Part shown: one piece after another, positions 25,439 through 29,964 of the stretch
How positions within the stretch are numbered: position 1 is the stretch's first letter
Layout: each line of letters opens with the position of its first letter
Origin: Thermoplasmata archaeon
GTDB lineage: Archaea; Thermoplasmatota; Thermoplasmata; Thermoplasmatales; Thermoplasmataceae
Assembly: GCA_015520045.1 (NCBI GenBank)
Contig: WAQW01000021.1
Coordinates: 1-51,283 of the forward strand
Length of the DNA: 51,283 bases
Direction: 5' to 3'
Made by a program: the position numbers and the translations under genes
Notes under the pieces: model-generated
The model's input: only the letters and a program-made list of their open reading frames with translations
Databases searched by the model: none
What the model was told of the DNA's origin: nothing

Positions 25439-26953
25439 CTATTCGCTCATCCTGCGTTTGCGCTCTTTTTTGATCTCTGAACGCATCCTGCCAAGTGGAT
25501 AGTCATGCAAGTCAACGAATTTTATTATTTTTGATAGGGTTGGATGTACTCTTTTGATGCTAGCATATATATCCTGAGCGATCATTCTCAGATCATAATG
25601 CGCCTGAGGGGTACTCCTCAGCTCAACAAAATAGCACAACTCTCTCAGGTTGGCGTGGAGTATGACAGGATACCTATACCCAAATGGCACAGTATACTGA
25701 GCGACAGATTCTCCGTTTGTGTTTTTTATCATCTTCCATATCGAGGGCGCCCGATCCATTATGGAGGTAAATCTCTTCCTAAGCTCAGGGATGCTTCTGA
25801 TTGTCGGCGGAATATCATATCCATAGAGTGGTGTAAGTTTGCGCCTCACTACTGAAAGCATTCTGTGGCGTTGGAGTTCCCTGAAAGCACCGTAGTTAGT
25901 GTTTATGATGAATGTATATGGAACGAATTCATACCACCTTCCAGGTTTATCCCTTCTGTTATTCCTGATGAATGAATCACGTAGAACAAAAGAACCATCG
26001 TCTCGTTCGTGTGCGGCTTGAACTTTATTGCAATCCAGCAGAAAATTTCTTGCTTCATAAACACGGGCAAGTGCCTCTCTTTCTGGAAGATAGTTCCTCA
26101 GTGAAACGAGGTGTCCGTTATAAGAAGTGAGAGTTACGCAGGTTTCCCTATCCCTCTCCTTTAGATAATTCGCAAGCGAAACGGAATGCTGAGAGTTCAC
26201 ATCGTCAATCAGTTCTGGGAGTTCTTTTTTAAGCTCCAAGAAAAGCTCTTCCCCGATTCTCTGAAGTTCAGGAAGATCTGAATTGTAAAGTTTTATTATC
26301 AAATGATGAAACGCCCTACCGTTTCCACTCACCCCCAGGTTAGTGAGTGTTGATGAGGGCAACAGTGAACGGATCTCATCTAGAACGCGGGACTTCAGCG
26401 CCCTTGTGTAGGCCTTCTTCAACAAAGCATCACTTTCTTCAGGGGGATATTCCTCAGAAAATTTTTCAAATGGAAACATCTCCTCAAGATGAAGGTAAAG
26501 TTTCTCTCTGTAATCAGAATATGTCTGGAAAAGAGTATCACAGTATTCTTCATATCGTTCTGATATGCTTCCGGAAAAGCCCAGTGACTCGCCTTTTAAG
26601 TAAAGGTACTCACCATTTTTCCTGGCATCATATTCTACGTAGCGTGAAGATTTTTCTAGATAGGAGAGGCCGATCCGGTTTTCTTCTATATATTTTGAGG
26701 CAATATTGGATATGTTCTGGATGCCCACTTGAGCTGTAACCAGTTCTGCGATACTTTCATCACCATATTCAGAGAAGATTCTCCTGTAAAAATTACGTCC
26801 CCTGTTGGGATTATCTTTGAACTCGTGTTTGTAGACCTCTCGAATATCAAGTTCTGAGGATCTGCTGTACCTGGACATGAGAGCTCCACGATCGATCATC
26901 TTATCAATAGAAACCAAGAAAACATCTTTGTTGTGGTTAGAAAAATCTGCCAA
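25439..26953 (-). CDS. thyX: Two-domain ThyX-like flavin-dependent thymidylate synthase
   Basis: A protein of about 504 residues, twice the size of ordinary ThyX (about 220-250), which methylates dUMP using methylene-tetrahydrofolate and FADH2. The first half contains GALMSRYSRSSELDIREV, YGDESIAELVTAQVGIQN, and ENRIGLSYLEKSSRYVEYD, keeping the S-x2-E-x-S-x-RY part of the ThyX signature without RHR. The second half contains FRELQRHRMLSVVRRK, keeping RHR but not the downstream Ser. It resembles the long ThyX relatives known from bacteria. Start uncertain: conservation begins near NKDVFLVSIDK, so the TTG at 26953 (GGGTG 9 nt upstream) or the GTG at 26965 is likely. The open frame runs to 27055, but the extra residues are strongly basic and overlap the upstream gene. 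Confidence 0.75.
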   Translation of the reverse strand: MADFSNHNKDVFLVSIDKMIDRGALMSRYSRSSELDIREVYKHEFKDNPNRGRNFYRRIFSEYGDESIAELVTAQVGIQNISNIASKYIEENRIGLSYLEKSSRYVEYDARKNGEYLYLKGESLGFSGSISERYEEYCDTLFQTYSDYREKLYLHLEEMFPFEKFSEEYPPEESDALLKKAYTRALKSRVLDEIRSLLPSSTLTNLGVSGNGRAFHHLIIKLYNSDLPELQRIGEELFLELKKELPELIDDVNSQHSVSLANYLKERDRETCVTLTSYNGHLVSLRNYLPEREALARVYEARNFLLDCNKVQAAHERDDGSFVLRDSFIRNNRRDKPGRWYEFVPYTFIINTNYGAFRELQRHRMLSVVRRKLTPLYGYDIPPTIRSIPELRKRFTSIMDRAPSIWKMIKNTNGESVAQYTVPFGYRYPVILHANLRELCYFVELRSTPQAHYDLRMIAQDIYASIKRVHPTLSKIIKFVDLHDYPLGRMRSEIKKERKRRMSE

Positions 26954-27020
26954 ACTGATCAACACCCTAAAAAATGTCGGAAAATAAAATTTTCGTTTAT
27001 TAATAGCATATCTTCTGATA

Positions 27021-27527
27021 TTATTTTTTCTTACCCGCTTCCTCCGTGGGAACAAAGTACACGTCTGTTGGACTGATTTTAAGATTCCTTCTGAACTTGG
27101 CTCTTATGGGCATTCCAATGTAGAGATCCTCAGTATCAGCACCGATCAGCCTTCCCAGAAACAGTGAGTTAACACCATCAAATTCTACGAGCACCAGATG
27201 AAACGGTGTTTCGGGAAGAAACTCTTCACTCCCAAAGTAGCAGGTGGTGAACGAGTGGATCCTACCTTCCTTGGGAAGTTCATACCATTCTGTCTCCGCC
27301 CCACACATCATACAGTGGGCCCTAGGCGTTGCATAGACATATCCACACTTCTTGCACTTGCTGCCAAGAAGCTTTTTTTGCCCGAGCGCCTTAAAGAATT
27401 CCGAATCCTGAGCGTAGCTGTGGATATAATCTATCTCGTAGTGATATTTCACAATAAGTGGATCGAAGTTATAAATCTCGGTGCCTTGCTGAGACTCTGG
27501 CATTTTTGCGTTGGGGTTAATGGTCAT
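27021..27527 (-). CDS. DUF35 zinc-ribbon/OB-fold protein, thiolase partner
   Basis: A 168-residue DUF35 protein. The rubredoxin-like zinc ribbon CKKCGYVYATPRAHCMMCG has two CxxC pairs near residues 58-77. It is followed by an OB-fold (GRIHSFTTCYFG, PFHLVLVEFDGVNSLFLGRL). In archaea DUF35 proteins bridge acetoacetyl-CoA thiolase and HMG-CoA synthase; in actinobacteria they pair with Ltp2-type retro-aldolases. It overlaps the upstream thiolase-like gene by 4 nt, so the two are made together and very probably form a complex. Confidence 0.88.
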   Translation of the reverse strand: MTINPNAKMPESQQGTEIYNFDPLIVKYHYEIDYIHSYAQDSEFFKALGQKKLLGSKCKKCGYVYATPRAHCMMCGAETEWYELPKEGRIHSFTTCYFGSEEFLPETPFHLVLVEFDGVNSLFLGRLIGADTEDLYIGMPIRAKFRRNLKISPTDVYFVPTEEAGKKK

Positions 27528-28786
27528 CGTACCGCCTCCATAACAGTAACAGTTACATATGTTCCAGTTCCAGCATGACTGTGAATCAGACCTCTCTTCG
27601 GATTGGTCAACTGAAGTTTGTCGTTTCCGAAATGCTTTTTTATGGATCGCTGAAGCTGCCAGAACATAAAAACAGCCTGCATTATTCCTGTGGCACCAAC
27701 TGGATGCCCACTAGCGAGCAGACCACCCGAGAAATTAACGGCTACCTCTCCGTTGATATCCGCTTTCCCTTCTTCGACAAATTGACCACCTTCCCCATAC
27801 TTGCAGAACCCGAGATCCTCATAGGTCTGTATTTCGGATGAGGTATACGCGTCATGCAGTTCAACCGCATCAATCTCCTTGAGAGGATCGGTAATTCCGG
27901 CCATTTCATAAGCTTCCTTTGCTGCCGTTCTACCGGCCCTGAAAGAGTGAACACCGGGATACTTTAGATTCCTATAGTCGCTCTCCTTTTCGTTTGGGAG
28001 AAGGGGGACCTTCCCAAATGGTCTATCTGATAACCTCATGCTGTCAGTACCTGTTCCAATACCCTTGATAAGAATGGGGTGATCTGTCAGTTCAAACGCC
28101 TTCTCCTCTGATGCAAGTATGGCCACGGCAGCTCCATCAGACATCGTACATATATCGAGCCGTGTTAAGGGATATGAAACCATTGGTGAGTTCCTGACGT
28201 CTTCAACGGTGAGCTTCATAGGGCTCTGTGAGTAAGGGTTATAAATAGCATTTCCGTGGTTCTTAACGGAAACCTGTGCAAGTTGCTCAACTGTTGTGCC
28301 AAATTCATACATATGCCTGACGGCCATCATTGCATAGTATCCGGTGTAAAAACCTCCGACAGGGTAGTCAAAGTTGGTATCACTGGCTAGGGCAATGAAT
28401 TCATTACCCTTCCATGTATTAACGTGTGACATCGTTTCAAACCCATATACCACACAGGTGTCCATTCTTCCGGATGCAATTTCTTCGTAGCCTGTCTGAA
28501 AAGCCAGGCCACCTGTTGCTCCACCACCCTCTATCCTCTTGCTGGGTTTGGGCGTTAATCCAAGGTAGTCCTGTACCATTATTCCGGACATCAGCTGGCG
28601 CTGAAAATGATCTGAAAAATAAGATGCCACTGATCCATCTATCATACTCAAATCTGCATTTATGTCATTCATCGCATAATCAAAGGCCTTTTTAACTCTC
28701 AATCTAAAATCCATATTGGGGGTGGCTTTAGCAAATTTTGTTACACCTCCAGAAACCATATATACATTCCTTCTTTCGCCTGACAT
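27524..28786 (-). CDS. Thiolase-superfamily protein lacking the nucleophilic Cys
   Basis: A 420-residue SCP-x/archaeal-thiolase-type fold. Family landmarks are present: VELHDAYTSSEIQTYEDLG, NFSGGLLASGHPVGATGIMQ with the catalytic His, and HSHAGTGTYVTV near the C-terminus. The position of the nucleophilic Cys, normally in a segment like VExACASG, reads RIEGGGATGG, so Gly89 replaces Cys. A classical ping-pong thiolase reaction is therefore not expected. Ltp2-like aldolases of the same superfamily also work without that Cys and also need a DUF35 partner, which is the gene directly downstream. A role in acyl-CoA carbon-carbon bond cleavage or as a noncatalytic scaffold are both possible; annotation as acetyl-CoA acetyltransferase would be unsafe. 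Confidence 0.85.
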   Translation of the reverse strand: MSGERRNVYMVSGGVTKFAKATPNMDFRLRVKKAFDYAMNDINADLSMIDGSVASYFSDHFQRQLMSGIMVQDYLGLTPKPSKRIEGGGATGGLAFQTGYEEIASGRMDTCVVYGFETMSHVNTWKGNEFIALASDTNFDYPVGGFYTGYYAMMAVRHMYEFGTTVEQLAQVSVKNHGNAIYNPYSQSPMKLTVEDVRNSPMVSYPLTRLDICTMSDGAAVAILASEEKAFELTDHPILIKGIGTGTDSMRLSDRPFGKVPLLPNEKESDYRNLKYPGVHSFRAGRTAAKEAYEMAGITDPLKEIDAVELHDAYTSSEIQTYEDLGFCKYGEGGQFVEEGKADINGEVAVNFSGGLLASGHPVGATGIMQAVFMFWQLQRSIKKHFGNDKLQLTNPKRGLIHSHAGTGTYVTVTVMEAVR

Positions 28787-29033
28787 AATACCGGTTTGGA
28801 TATGCGAAGATTCTTAAAAAAATTATCCAATTCCCTATTGCAGAAAACTACTGTGAGGAAAGATCGGTTATTTTATTTTTTAGCGTACACAATAGATTCA
28901 CATACAGAGAGTAATACAGAAGTTACGATGGAAAATTCAGTATGGGCATAACAAAACCTTCCTGTAATTTTTGCCTTCTATTTTGTTCAGGTAGTGGCTC
29001 TGCCTTTTTAATGAGCAACGATTCACGAAACAT

Positions 29034-29042
29034 TTTATATAT
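29034..29042 (+). promoter_or_regulatory. TATA box for the secreted lipase gene
   Basis: TTTATATAT-like sequence (TTTATATATT region) centred 27 nt before the ATG at 29065. This supports that start over the upstream in-frame ATG at 28942. Confidence 0.55.
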
Positions 29043-29064
29043 TCTAATGTGCATATCAGAATGT

Positions 29065-29964
29065 ATGCGTTATAAAGGCACTGTGTATCTGGTTTTGATT
29101 ATCTTTACTGTAATCATGATGGCGCCAGTAAACGTACACACAACGACAGTAAATCAGTATGAAAACACTCCTGCCACTGTTGTGGGCAGTCAACATACCT
29201 ATGTGCTTCTGGTTCATGGTTATTCGCCCGGTGATCTTTCTGGAACGCCTAACACAGGCTCGTGGATCAGCGGAGTCGATTTCGAACAGCAGCTGATCGA
29301 TAGGGGCTACACTGTGGGAGTTGTATCATACTATGGAACTTTTACGGTATCCTTCAGCAACGGTTACACCTACACCAACAGCTCTTTCTTTGGTACTGCA
29401 AACACACCGATTCAAAACATTGGTGAGCAATTCGGAATTGCCATGGAAAAGATATTTTCTTCAGGAGTGTCCAATGTTGACATAGTTACACATAGTATGG
29501 GAGGGCTTGTCGTTCTTTATGCTCTTGAGCACTACCGCAACTCCCATATAAACATCGATAACGTGATATTCATAGCACCACCATTCGGAGGATCTCCTTT
29601 TGCGAGCGTGGCCAAGTACCTGGGACTCTCAGGATATGTTGGCTCCGAAGCATATCAGATGGTTGGGGGATCATCATTTCTTAATGCACTCGACTATGGG
29701 GCGGGCAGCGCTGTGAATAATTATCCCAATACGGTATGGACTATCTTCGCCGGTAACTATGATCCCTGGTGGGGTTATGTATTCTTCAGTGGAGAGAATG
29801 ACGGTGTTGTTTCAGTCGCATCTGCCACATATCTTGGATATAACAACCTCTTTGTATTTCCAGACCTTCACACCGGAAGTTTGGATGGATTGACATGGGG
29901 AGGTATATCTTACTTTGAAGATCAGAACGTTGCCTATGCCATGTTTGAAGTTCTAGCTAGCTGA
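29065..29964 (+). CDS. Secreted alpha/beta-hydrolase lipase or esterase
   Basis: An extracellular lipase-like enzyme of 299 residues from the chosen start. The N-terminus MRYKGTVYLVLIIFTVIMM is a signal peptide or anchor. The oxyanion region VLLVHGYSPGD, nucleophile elbow THSMGG, acid in GENDGVVS and base in FPDLHTG give a complete Ser-Asp-His triad in order. The fold resembles Pseudomonas/Bacillus-type triacylglycerol lipases and PGAP1-like hydrolases; the substrate is unknown. The ATG at 29065 is chosen because the signal peptide starts there and a TATA box lies 27 nt upstream. The longer frame from 28942 adds 41 residues with many Cys and no plausible export signal. Likely acts on extracellular lipids or esters. 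Confidence 0.85.
   Translation: MRYKGTVYLVLIIFTVIMMAPVNVHTTTVNQYENTPATVVGSQHTYVLLVHGYSPGDLSGTPNTGSWISGVDFEQQLIDRGYTVGVVSYYGTFTVSFSNGYTYTNSSFFGTANTPIQNIGEQFGIAMEKIFSSGVSNVDIVTHSMGGLVVLYALEHYRNSHINIDNVIFIAPPFGGSPFASVAKYLGLSGYVGSEAYQMVGGSSFLNALDYGAGSAVNNYPNTVWTIFAGNYDPWWGYVFFSGENDGVVSVASATYLGYNNLFVFPDLHTGSLDGLTWGGISYFEDQNVAYAMFEVLAS

Follow-up and report, generated by a model that had tools for sequence, protein, structure and literature searches.

The window, that is, the whole 51,283-nt stretch of DNA analysed (positions 1 to 51,283, forward strand, of contig WAQW01000021.1 from a Thermoplasmata archaeon, assembly GCA_015520045.1), carries two translationally coupled minus-strand genes, ORFs 27524-28786 and 27021-27527, joined through an ATGA in which they share 4 nt; the 4-nt overlap is as the first-pass annotation had described. 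The features of this pair, in window coordinates, are as follows:

27524..28786, minus strand: Cys-less thiolase-fold protein, putative acyl-CoA aldolase large subunit (420 aa, ATG start)
27021..27527, minus strand: DUF35 partner (zf-ChsH2 + OB_ChsH2_C; 168 aa)
28508..28531, minus strand: EGGGATGG loop, codons 86-93, with Gly89 at the nucleophilic-Cys position (from alignment)
27938..28024, minus strand: conserved family-specific insertion, codons 255-283 (from alignment)
27845..27856, minus strand: H311-D-A-Y, codons 311-314, the first position being that of the catalytic Tyr of Ltp2/Sal (from alignment and PMC12329534)
27704..27706, minus strand: His361 of GHPVGATG, codon 361, invariant (from the family alignment)
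27575..27583, minus strand: H-S-H of HSHAGTG, codons 402-404, both His invariant in the family (from the family alignment)
27303..27356, minus strand: zinc ribbon of the DUF35 partner, C-x2-C-x10-C-x2-C, codons 58-75 (from the sequence)

On one side of the pair lies a 538-aa ThyX homologue (25439-27055, minus strand), more than twice the usual length and with two Thy1-matching stretches, which begins at a TTG codon within the 3' end of the DUF35 gene. On the other side, divergent from and upstream of the putative aldolase gene, an LCAT/PGAP1-type alpha/beta hydrolase with a hydrophobic N-terminal stretch is encoded (28942-29964, plus strand), which is possibly an exported lipase.

Pfam recognised Thiolase_N, Thiolase_C and Thiolase_C_1 in the 420-aa protein, and a ChsH2 zinc ribbon plus an OB fold in the 168-aa partner. 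The larger protein scored 793 bits against the NCBIfam family NF004982/PRK06365, whose curated cut-off is 695. The warning that it would be misannotated as acetyl-CoA acetyltransferase holds only in part, since NCBIfam already separates PRK06365, as a 'thiolase domain-containing protein', but assigns it no function. Its predicted fold was confident (mean pLDDT 89.9, pTM 0.92), and the nearest solved structures were 6et9/6esq, with 6et9 the best, then Pyrococcus 7yvy, SCP2 thiolases and BbsB, with Ltp2 (6ok1) and Sal (9myr) after them.

The replacement of the nucleophilic Cys by Gly in E86-G-G-G89-A-T-G-G was confirmed by alignment, where Gly89 lies opposite the Cys of VEAACASG (6esq), IEAACASG (7yvy) and VQSACSAG (BbsB, 7pxp); a Cys shifted to a neighbouring position was looked for in the same alignment and not found, so the observation stands. 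Measured against thiolases (EC 2.3.1.9/16), the query thus lacks the nucleophilic Cys of the CxSG loop and has the GHP His. Relatives of about 70-88% identity came from Thermoplasmata and from bacteria, namely Bacillota (Desulfosporosinus isolates included), Nitrospirota, Nitrospinia, Planctomycetota including Scalindua, Aminicenantes, Chloroflexi and others, the MAG labels being those of the depositors and possibly wrong. Across 92 non-redundant members, G88, G89, T91, C213, H361, H402 and H404 were invariant, and H60 and H280 were kept in at least 99%; the GHPVGATG His, said earlier to be kept, is present in 92/92. His311 occurs in 90/92 (98%), the query included, with Tyr only in two orthologues (L085 and L086). 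Position 313 of HDAY is Ala in 88/92 and Ser in 4/92, the second thiolase Cys (that of HDCF, SCP2/archaeal type) being absent. The 255-283 insertion adds about 21 residues relative to thiolases and contains invariant Y276, P277, G278, H280 and S281, and His404 is absent from the paralogues compared. Because Gly89, His361, His402 and His404 are invariant in the 92 members, PRK06365 is, judged on its sequences, a maintained enzyme family and not a decayed thiolase. Chance, or a sequencing or assembly error, behind the missing Cys was ruled out, Gly89 being found in 92/92. One apparent thiolase-DUF35 fusion (locus L294, 6045-7790) was left out as an artefact of the reading frame, arising close to the thiolase gene's 3' end; the sequence at the join is altered, which points to a frameshift and not to a naturally fused gene.

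Immediately upstream of the aldolase ORF, ten Thermoplasmatales genomes from three genera have an acyl-CoA dehydrogenase gene, the two overlapping by 1-20 nt. The dehydrogenases of all ten loci have LN[LM]ER in helix G and IGAGT replacing YEGT; we take the LxxER helix-G Glu with GAGT for YEGT to be the signature of isovaleryl-CoA dehydrogenase, as in human IVD and visible in the 1ivh alignment. When one operon dehydrogenase was searched against the PDB, the top five matches were all isovaleryl-CoA dehydrogenases (347-326 bits), followed by a butyryl-CoA dehydrogenase (293). An isovaleryl-type dehydrogenase was also found in the window genome (contig 27) and in ten others; the dehydrogenase of one further genome (G065) reads GGGT, and none of the five dehydrogenases fetched from one f3 genome (G200) was isovaleryl-type. 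In family f4 the pair lies near a 3-hydroxyacyl-CoA dehydrogenase, a classical thiolase and urocanase.

No PF01039 carboxyltransferase was found in 12 genomes of the family, that of the window included, and three order-mates (f3, f4) with the pair, these genomes being 93-99% complete except that of the window, at only 76%. The f2 order-mates, which are without the pair, had a methylmalonyl-type mutase and a carboxyltransferase (two tested), and no E1 (two tested) or acyl-CoA dehydrogenase (four tested) was found in them. Carboxyltransferases are present in some bacterial and f5 genomes carrying the pair, so being carboxylase-free need not be a general property of the pathway.

In genomes with a 2-oxoacid dehydrogenase, an isovaleryl-CoA dehydrogenase and an isobutyryl-CoA mutase but no biotin-dependent carboxyltransferase, the textbook leucine route stops at 3-methylcrotonyl-CoA; such genomes can handle valine through the mutase and isoleucine through ordinary beta-oxidation. 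A 3-hydroxyisovaleryl-CoA aldolase would close this gap. Leucine would pass through its 2-oxo acid to isovaleryl-CoA by the 2-oxoacid dehydrogenase, and then by isovaleryl-CoA dehydrogenase to 3-methylcrotonyl-CoA, whose hydration would supply the aldolase; conversion of isobutyryl-CoA to butyryl-CoA by isobutyryl-CoA mutase would be the valine counterpart. From residues, conservation, fold, gene pairing, phylogeny, genomic context and carboxyltransferase absence we infer the reaction, its direction, its substrate and the residue roles. On this basis the pair is probably a thiolase-fold acyl-CoA aldolase, and we lean, by a narrow balance, towards 3-hydroxyisovaleryl-CoA (3-hydroxy-3-methylbutyryl-CoA) as its substrate, cleaved into acetone and acetyl-CoA as part of a leucine degradation that needs no carboxylase. 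The broadest form of the proposal, an acetone-forming, carboxylase-free leucine route with a new His/His aldolase, conserved in the Thermoplasmatales examined and in bacterial phyla with isobutyryl-CoA mutase, is advanced tentatively, at a little under an even chance. In the open-access literature searched we found no enzyme for 3-hydroxyisovaleryl-CoA cleavage, no named function for the pair, no such leucine route and no acetone formation by these organisms.

Mechanistically, the absence of the Cys nucleophile would leave no acyl-enzyme and call for acid-base aldol chemistry. By analogy with the characterised aldolases, the Gly88-Gly89 backbone would hold the beta-hydroxyl and His311 (Tyr in some orthologues) would deprotonate it, upon which the C-C bond would break to give the ketone and an acyl-CoA enolate; the latter could be protonated by His361 and/or His404, and DUF35 would supply the remainder of the CoA/substrate site, as its counterparts do in Ltp2-ChsH2 and Sal-Shy. 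Against this explanation, a His/His acid/base pair matches neither Ltp2 nor Sal, and His311 and His361 are also thiolase residues.

The commonest bacterial neighbours of the pair were acyl-CoA dehydrogenase (16 loci), a split B12 acyl-CoA mutase (11 loci), CoA ligase and sigma-54 regulators, and several mutase loci were ordered large-small-aldolase-DUF35. Neighbouring mutases have Phe/Gln at the positions of Tyr89/Arg207 in methylmalonyl-CoA mutase (MCM) and lack the Asp117 of HCM, a combination which we take to mark isobutyryl-CoA mutase (ICM). Among the bacterial best matches fetched, 27/30 were ICM-type and three were MCM (L216, L218 and L219), and a methylmalonyl-CoA context in bacteria was rejected on this count. 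The family was present in 45 genomes of a 295-genome phylum sample, and a mutase in 44/45; those mutases that were read in pair-bearing genomes were ICM-type, or an ICM-type copy was present, and one genome (G357) had the pair and no mutase. That the mutase in turn depends on the pair was also rejected, as f5, f12 and f14 genomes without a match (cut-off 1e-120) still had ICM-type mutases. Other neighbours were a 2-oxoacid dehydrogenase E1 directly after DUF35 (L091), MeaB in one locus and both ETF subunits in another. In Scalindua and Planctomycetota records (L110, L112), the mutase-aldolase operon runs into lysine-fermentation genes for a KCE-type cleavage enzyme and a lysine 2,3-aminomutase-type protein.

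The bacterial loci do not single out leucine: the signature of their adjacent dehydrogenase is GEGT/YEGT, which is butyryl-type rather than isovaleryl-type, and together with the mutase and E1 this context is not leucine-specific, while a carboxyltransferase lies near the pair in L082. These features speak for an aldolase of the same class with another branched 3-hydroxyacyl-CoA as substrate, or one running in the condensation direction, which we regard as unlikely, taken jointly. The candidate substrates are 2-methyl-3-hydroxybutyryl-CoA (giving acetaldehyde and propionyl-CoA), 3-hydroxyisobutyryl-CoA and HMG-CoA (giving acetoacetate and acetyl-CoA), all of them beta-hydroxy thioesters of the same catabolic neighbourhood. 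On acetone, Desulfotomaculum arcticum induces one gene annotated as a thiolase and another for a DUF35 protein (PMC8084838), which would fit condensation if they are members of the query family. However, the archaeal operon dehydrogenase is isovaleryl-type, valine and isoleucine intermediates are already routed (through the mutase, and through 3-hydroxyacyl-CoA dehydrogenase plus classical thiolase), and HMG-CoA has no origin from leucine without a carboxylase and is also a needed mevalonate intermediate.

The same genomes contain further thiolase-type proteins. In that of the window a search for a Cys-containing thiolase was positive, a classical one being encoded on contig 24 (Cys, NEAF, GHP), and the remaining two proteins of thiolase type in this partial genome have Thr at the Cys position. 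In 13/13 Thermoplasmatales genomes tested, the window genome included, a different thiolase adjoins the HMG-CoA synthase (HMGS) gene (in the window genome on contig 3, 58698-59828), and the five such proteins placed in the tree grouped with 6esq and 7yvy (100/99). A mevalonate role of the query pair was rejected, HMGS lying on contig 3 beside another thiolase, of the 6esq-type clade. In the genomes whose motifs were read, the HMGS-adjacent thiolase has lost the Cys to Thr/Ser (VEASTASG) and the GHP His to Asn/Asp/Phe/Tyr (GNP/GDP/GFP/GYP). These motifs suggest that, in this lineage, the thiolase subunit retained in the mevalonate thiolase-HMGS-DUF35 complex is non-catalytic and that classical thiolases supply the acetoacetyl-CoA. 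Two more groups were observed. One is a second Gly-bearing subfamily of about 40-43% identity with ITTGGATGG, HDAF and GHA (L189 and L179; G030, G049 and about ten other genomes); the tree joined the query family and this Gly-bearing paralogue group of about 43% identity as sisters in one clade (100/99). The other is one more branch of Cys-less thiolases from these archaea and comprises relatives of ST0096 (4yzo) with Thr/Ser at the Cys position (VDNTTASG), among them a protein on contig 57 of the window genome (25909-27042; L188) and two more (L175, L186).

The HMGS-adjacent protein is also what lends the idea of a non-catalytic scaffold, or CoA-binding partner of another enzyme, its appeal, as it lacks both the Cys and the GHP His in these very genomes, and 6esq shows thiolase-DUF35 complexes to be capable of scaffolding HMG-CoA synthase. 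The query lacks the Cys as well. That alternative, raised in the first-pass annotation, is nevertheless disfavoured and improbable, because the catalytic His is invariant here and variable in the HMGS-adjacent pseudo-thiolase: G88, G89, H361, H402 and H404 are kept at 100% over Archaea and several bacterial phyla, while the pseudo-thiolase varies at both the Cys and GHP-His positions. By its motifs the latter shows what function loss looks like, and the query family does not look so.

An enzyme that is a thiolase but employs another nucleophile, such as Cys213 or Thr91, or that acts on 3-ketoacyl-CoA by an unusual mechanism, would make use of residues that are invariant and of the thiolase His residues that are kept. 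We consider this very improbable, since Thr91 corresponds to the Ser of CASG, several ordinary paralogues have Cys or Ser at the Cys213 position (before the SDGA stretch), both thiolase Cys positions are empty (89, and the HDCF Cys, here Ala313), and classical Cys thiolases exist in the same genomes. Least probable of all is an acyl-CoA decarboxylase of the malonyl or methylmalonyl type, comparable to KSQ domains or TbSLP in having a Cys-less condensing fold with His: the Cys-less SLP slowly decarboxylates malonyl-CoA (PMC12329534) and a B12 mutase adjoins the pair in bacteria, but Sal has no such activity (PMC12329534), the adjacent and co-occurring mutases are ICM-type (Phe/Gln) rather than methylmalonyl-type (Tyr/Arg), and no carboxyltransferase was found in Thermoplasmatales with the pair.

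If the acetone-forming reading is true, these archaea degrade leucine without biotin-dependent methylcrotonyl-CoA carboxylase and HMG-CoA lyase, releasing acetone. This would fill a metabolic gap of Thermoplasma-type acidophiles, in which branched-chain entry enzymes are encoded and the carboxyltransferase is absent, would add a third catalytic solution among thiolase-fold aldolases, previously known from steroid side chains, and would give PRK06365 a testable function in Archaea and several bacterial phyla.

Among known systems, the closest solved relative by sequence and fold is the archaeal acetoacetyl-CoA thiolase 6esq/6et9 (32-33% identity), which shares the DUF35 gene pairing and the GHx His; the query differs in that both catalytic Cys are gone, an HMGS neighbour is lacking and the 255-283 insertion is extra; the mevalonate orthologue proper is a gene of its own in the window genome. 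The benzoylsuccinyl-CoA thiolase BbsAB (7pxp) is likewise a thiolase-DUF35 pair of anaerobic acyl-CoA catabolism, with an HDAF motif, but keeps its Cys nucleophile. ST0096 (4yzo) and its Thr/Ser relatives are archaeal and without the Cys nucleophile, like the query, yet have Ser/Thr rather than Gly and an HDM motif, and form a separate clade.

Ltp2 and Sal are characterised thiolase-fold aldolases, both Cys-less and both with a DUF35 domain; in Sal the Gly makes a backbone contact to the beta-hydroxyl, with Tyr302 as base and Cys304 as acid, and in Ltp2 the acid/base pair is Tyr294/Tyr344 (PMC12329534). At the Cys position the loops read IEGGGATGG in the query, GYGGGAACG in Ltp2 (6ok1) and DLGGASS in Sal (9myr), with the Gly common to all. 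His311 and His361 of the query are 50 residues apart, which by equal spacing puts His361 at the position of Ltp2 Tyr344 and Sal Gln352. In the tree, Ltp2 and Sal were represented only by plasmid-borne proteins resembling them, which lay on long branches outside the query clade, for which reason an independent loss of the Cys in the query family is likely rather than proven.

The bile-acid aldolase Sal-Shy(DUF35) resembles the query in its Gly and its DUF35 partner, and performs a retro-aldol reaction with release of acetyl-CoA; at its YDxY motif, YDCY in Sal and YDHF in Ltp2, the two orthologues L085 and L086 read YDSY. It differs in having Tyr302/Cys304 for His311/Ala313 and Gln352 for His361, at 22% identity. 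Ltp2-ChsH2(DUF35) shares the thiolase fold, the DUF35 partner and a GGGA loop whose Gly occupies the Cys position, and its cleavage of a tertiary beta-hydroxyacyl-CoA to a ketone is a precedent for the reaction proposed here; its substrate is a steroid, Tyr294 and Tyr344 stand in place of His311 and His361, and identity is about 24%. The query thus has the Gly and the DUF35 partner of these enzymes and lacks their Tyr base (YDxF/Y). Membership of the Ltp2/Sal group, judged by residues, is not upheld, but the earlier suggestion of an Ltp2-like C-C bond cleavage gains from the shared Gly loop, the invariant acid/base residues and the catabolic context.
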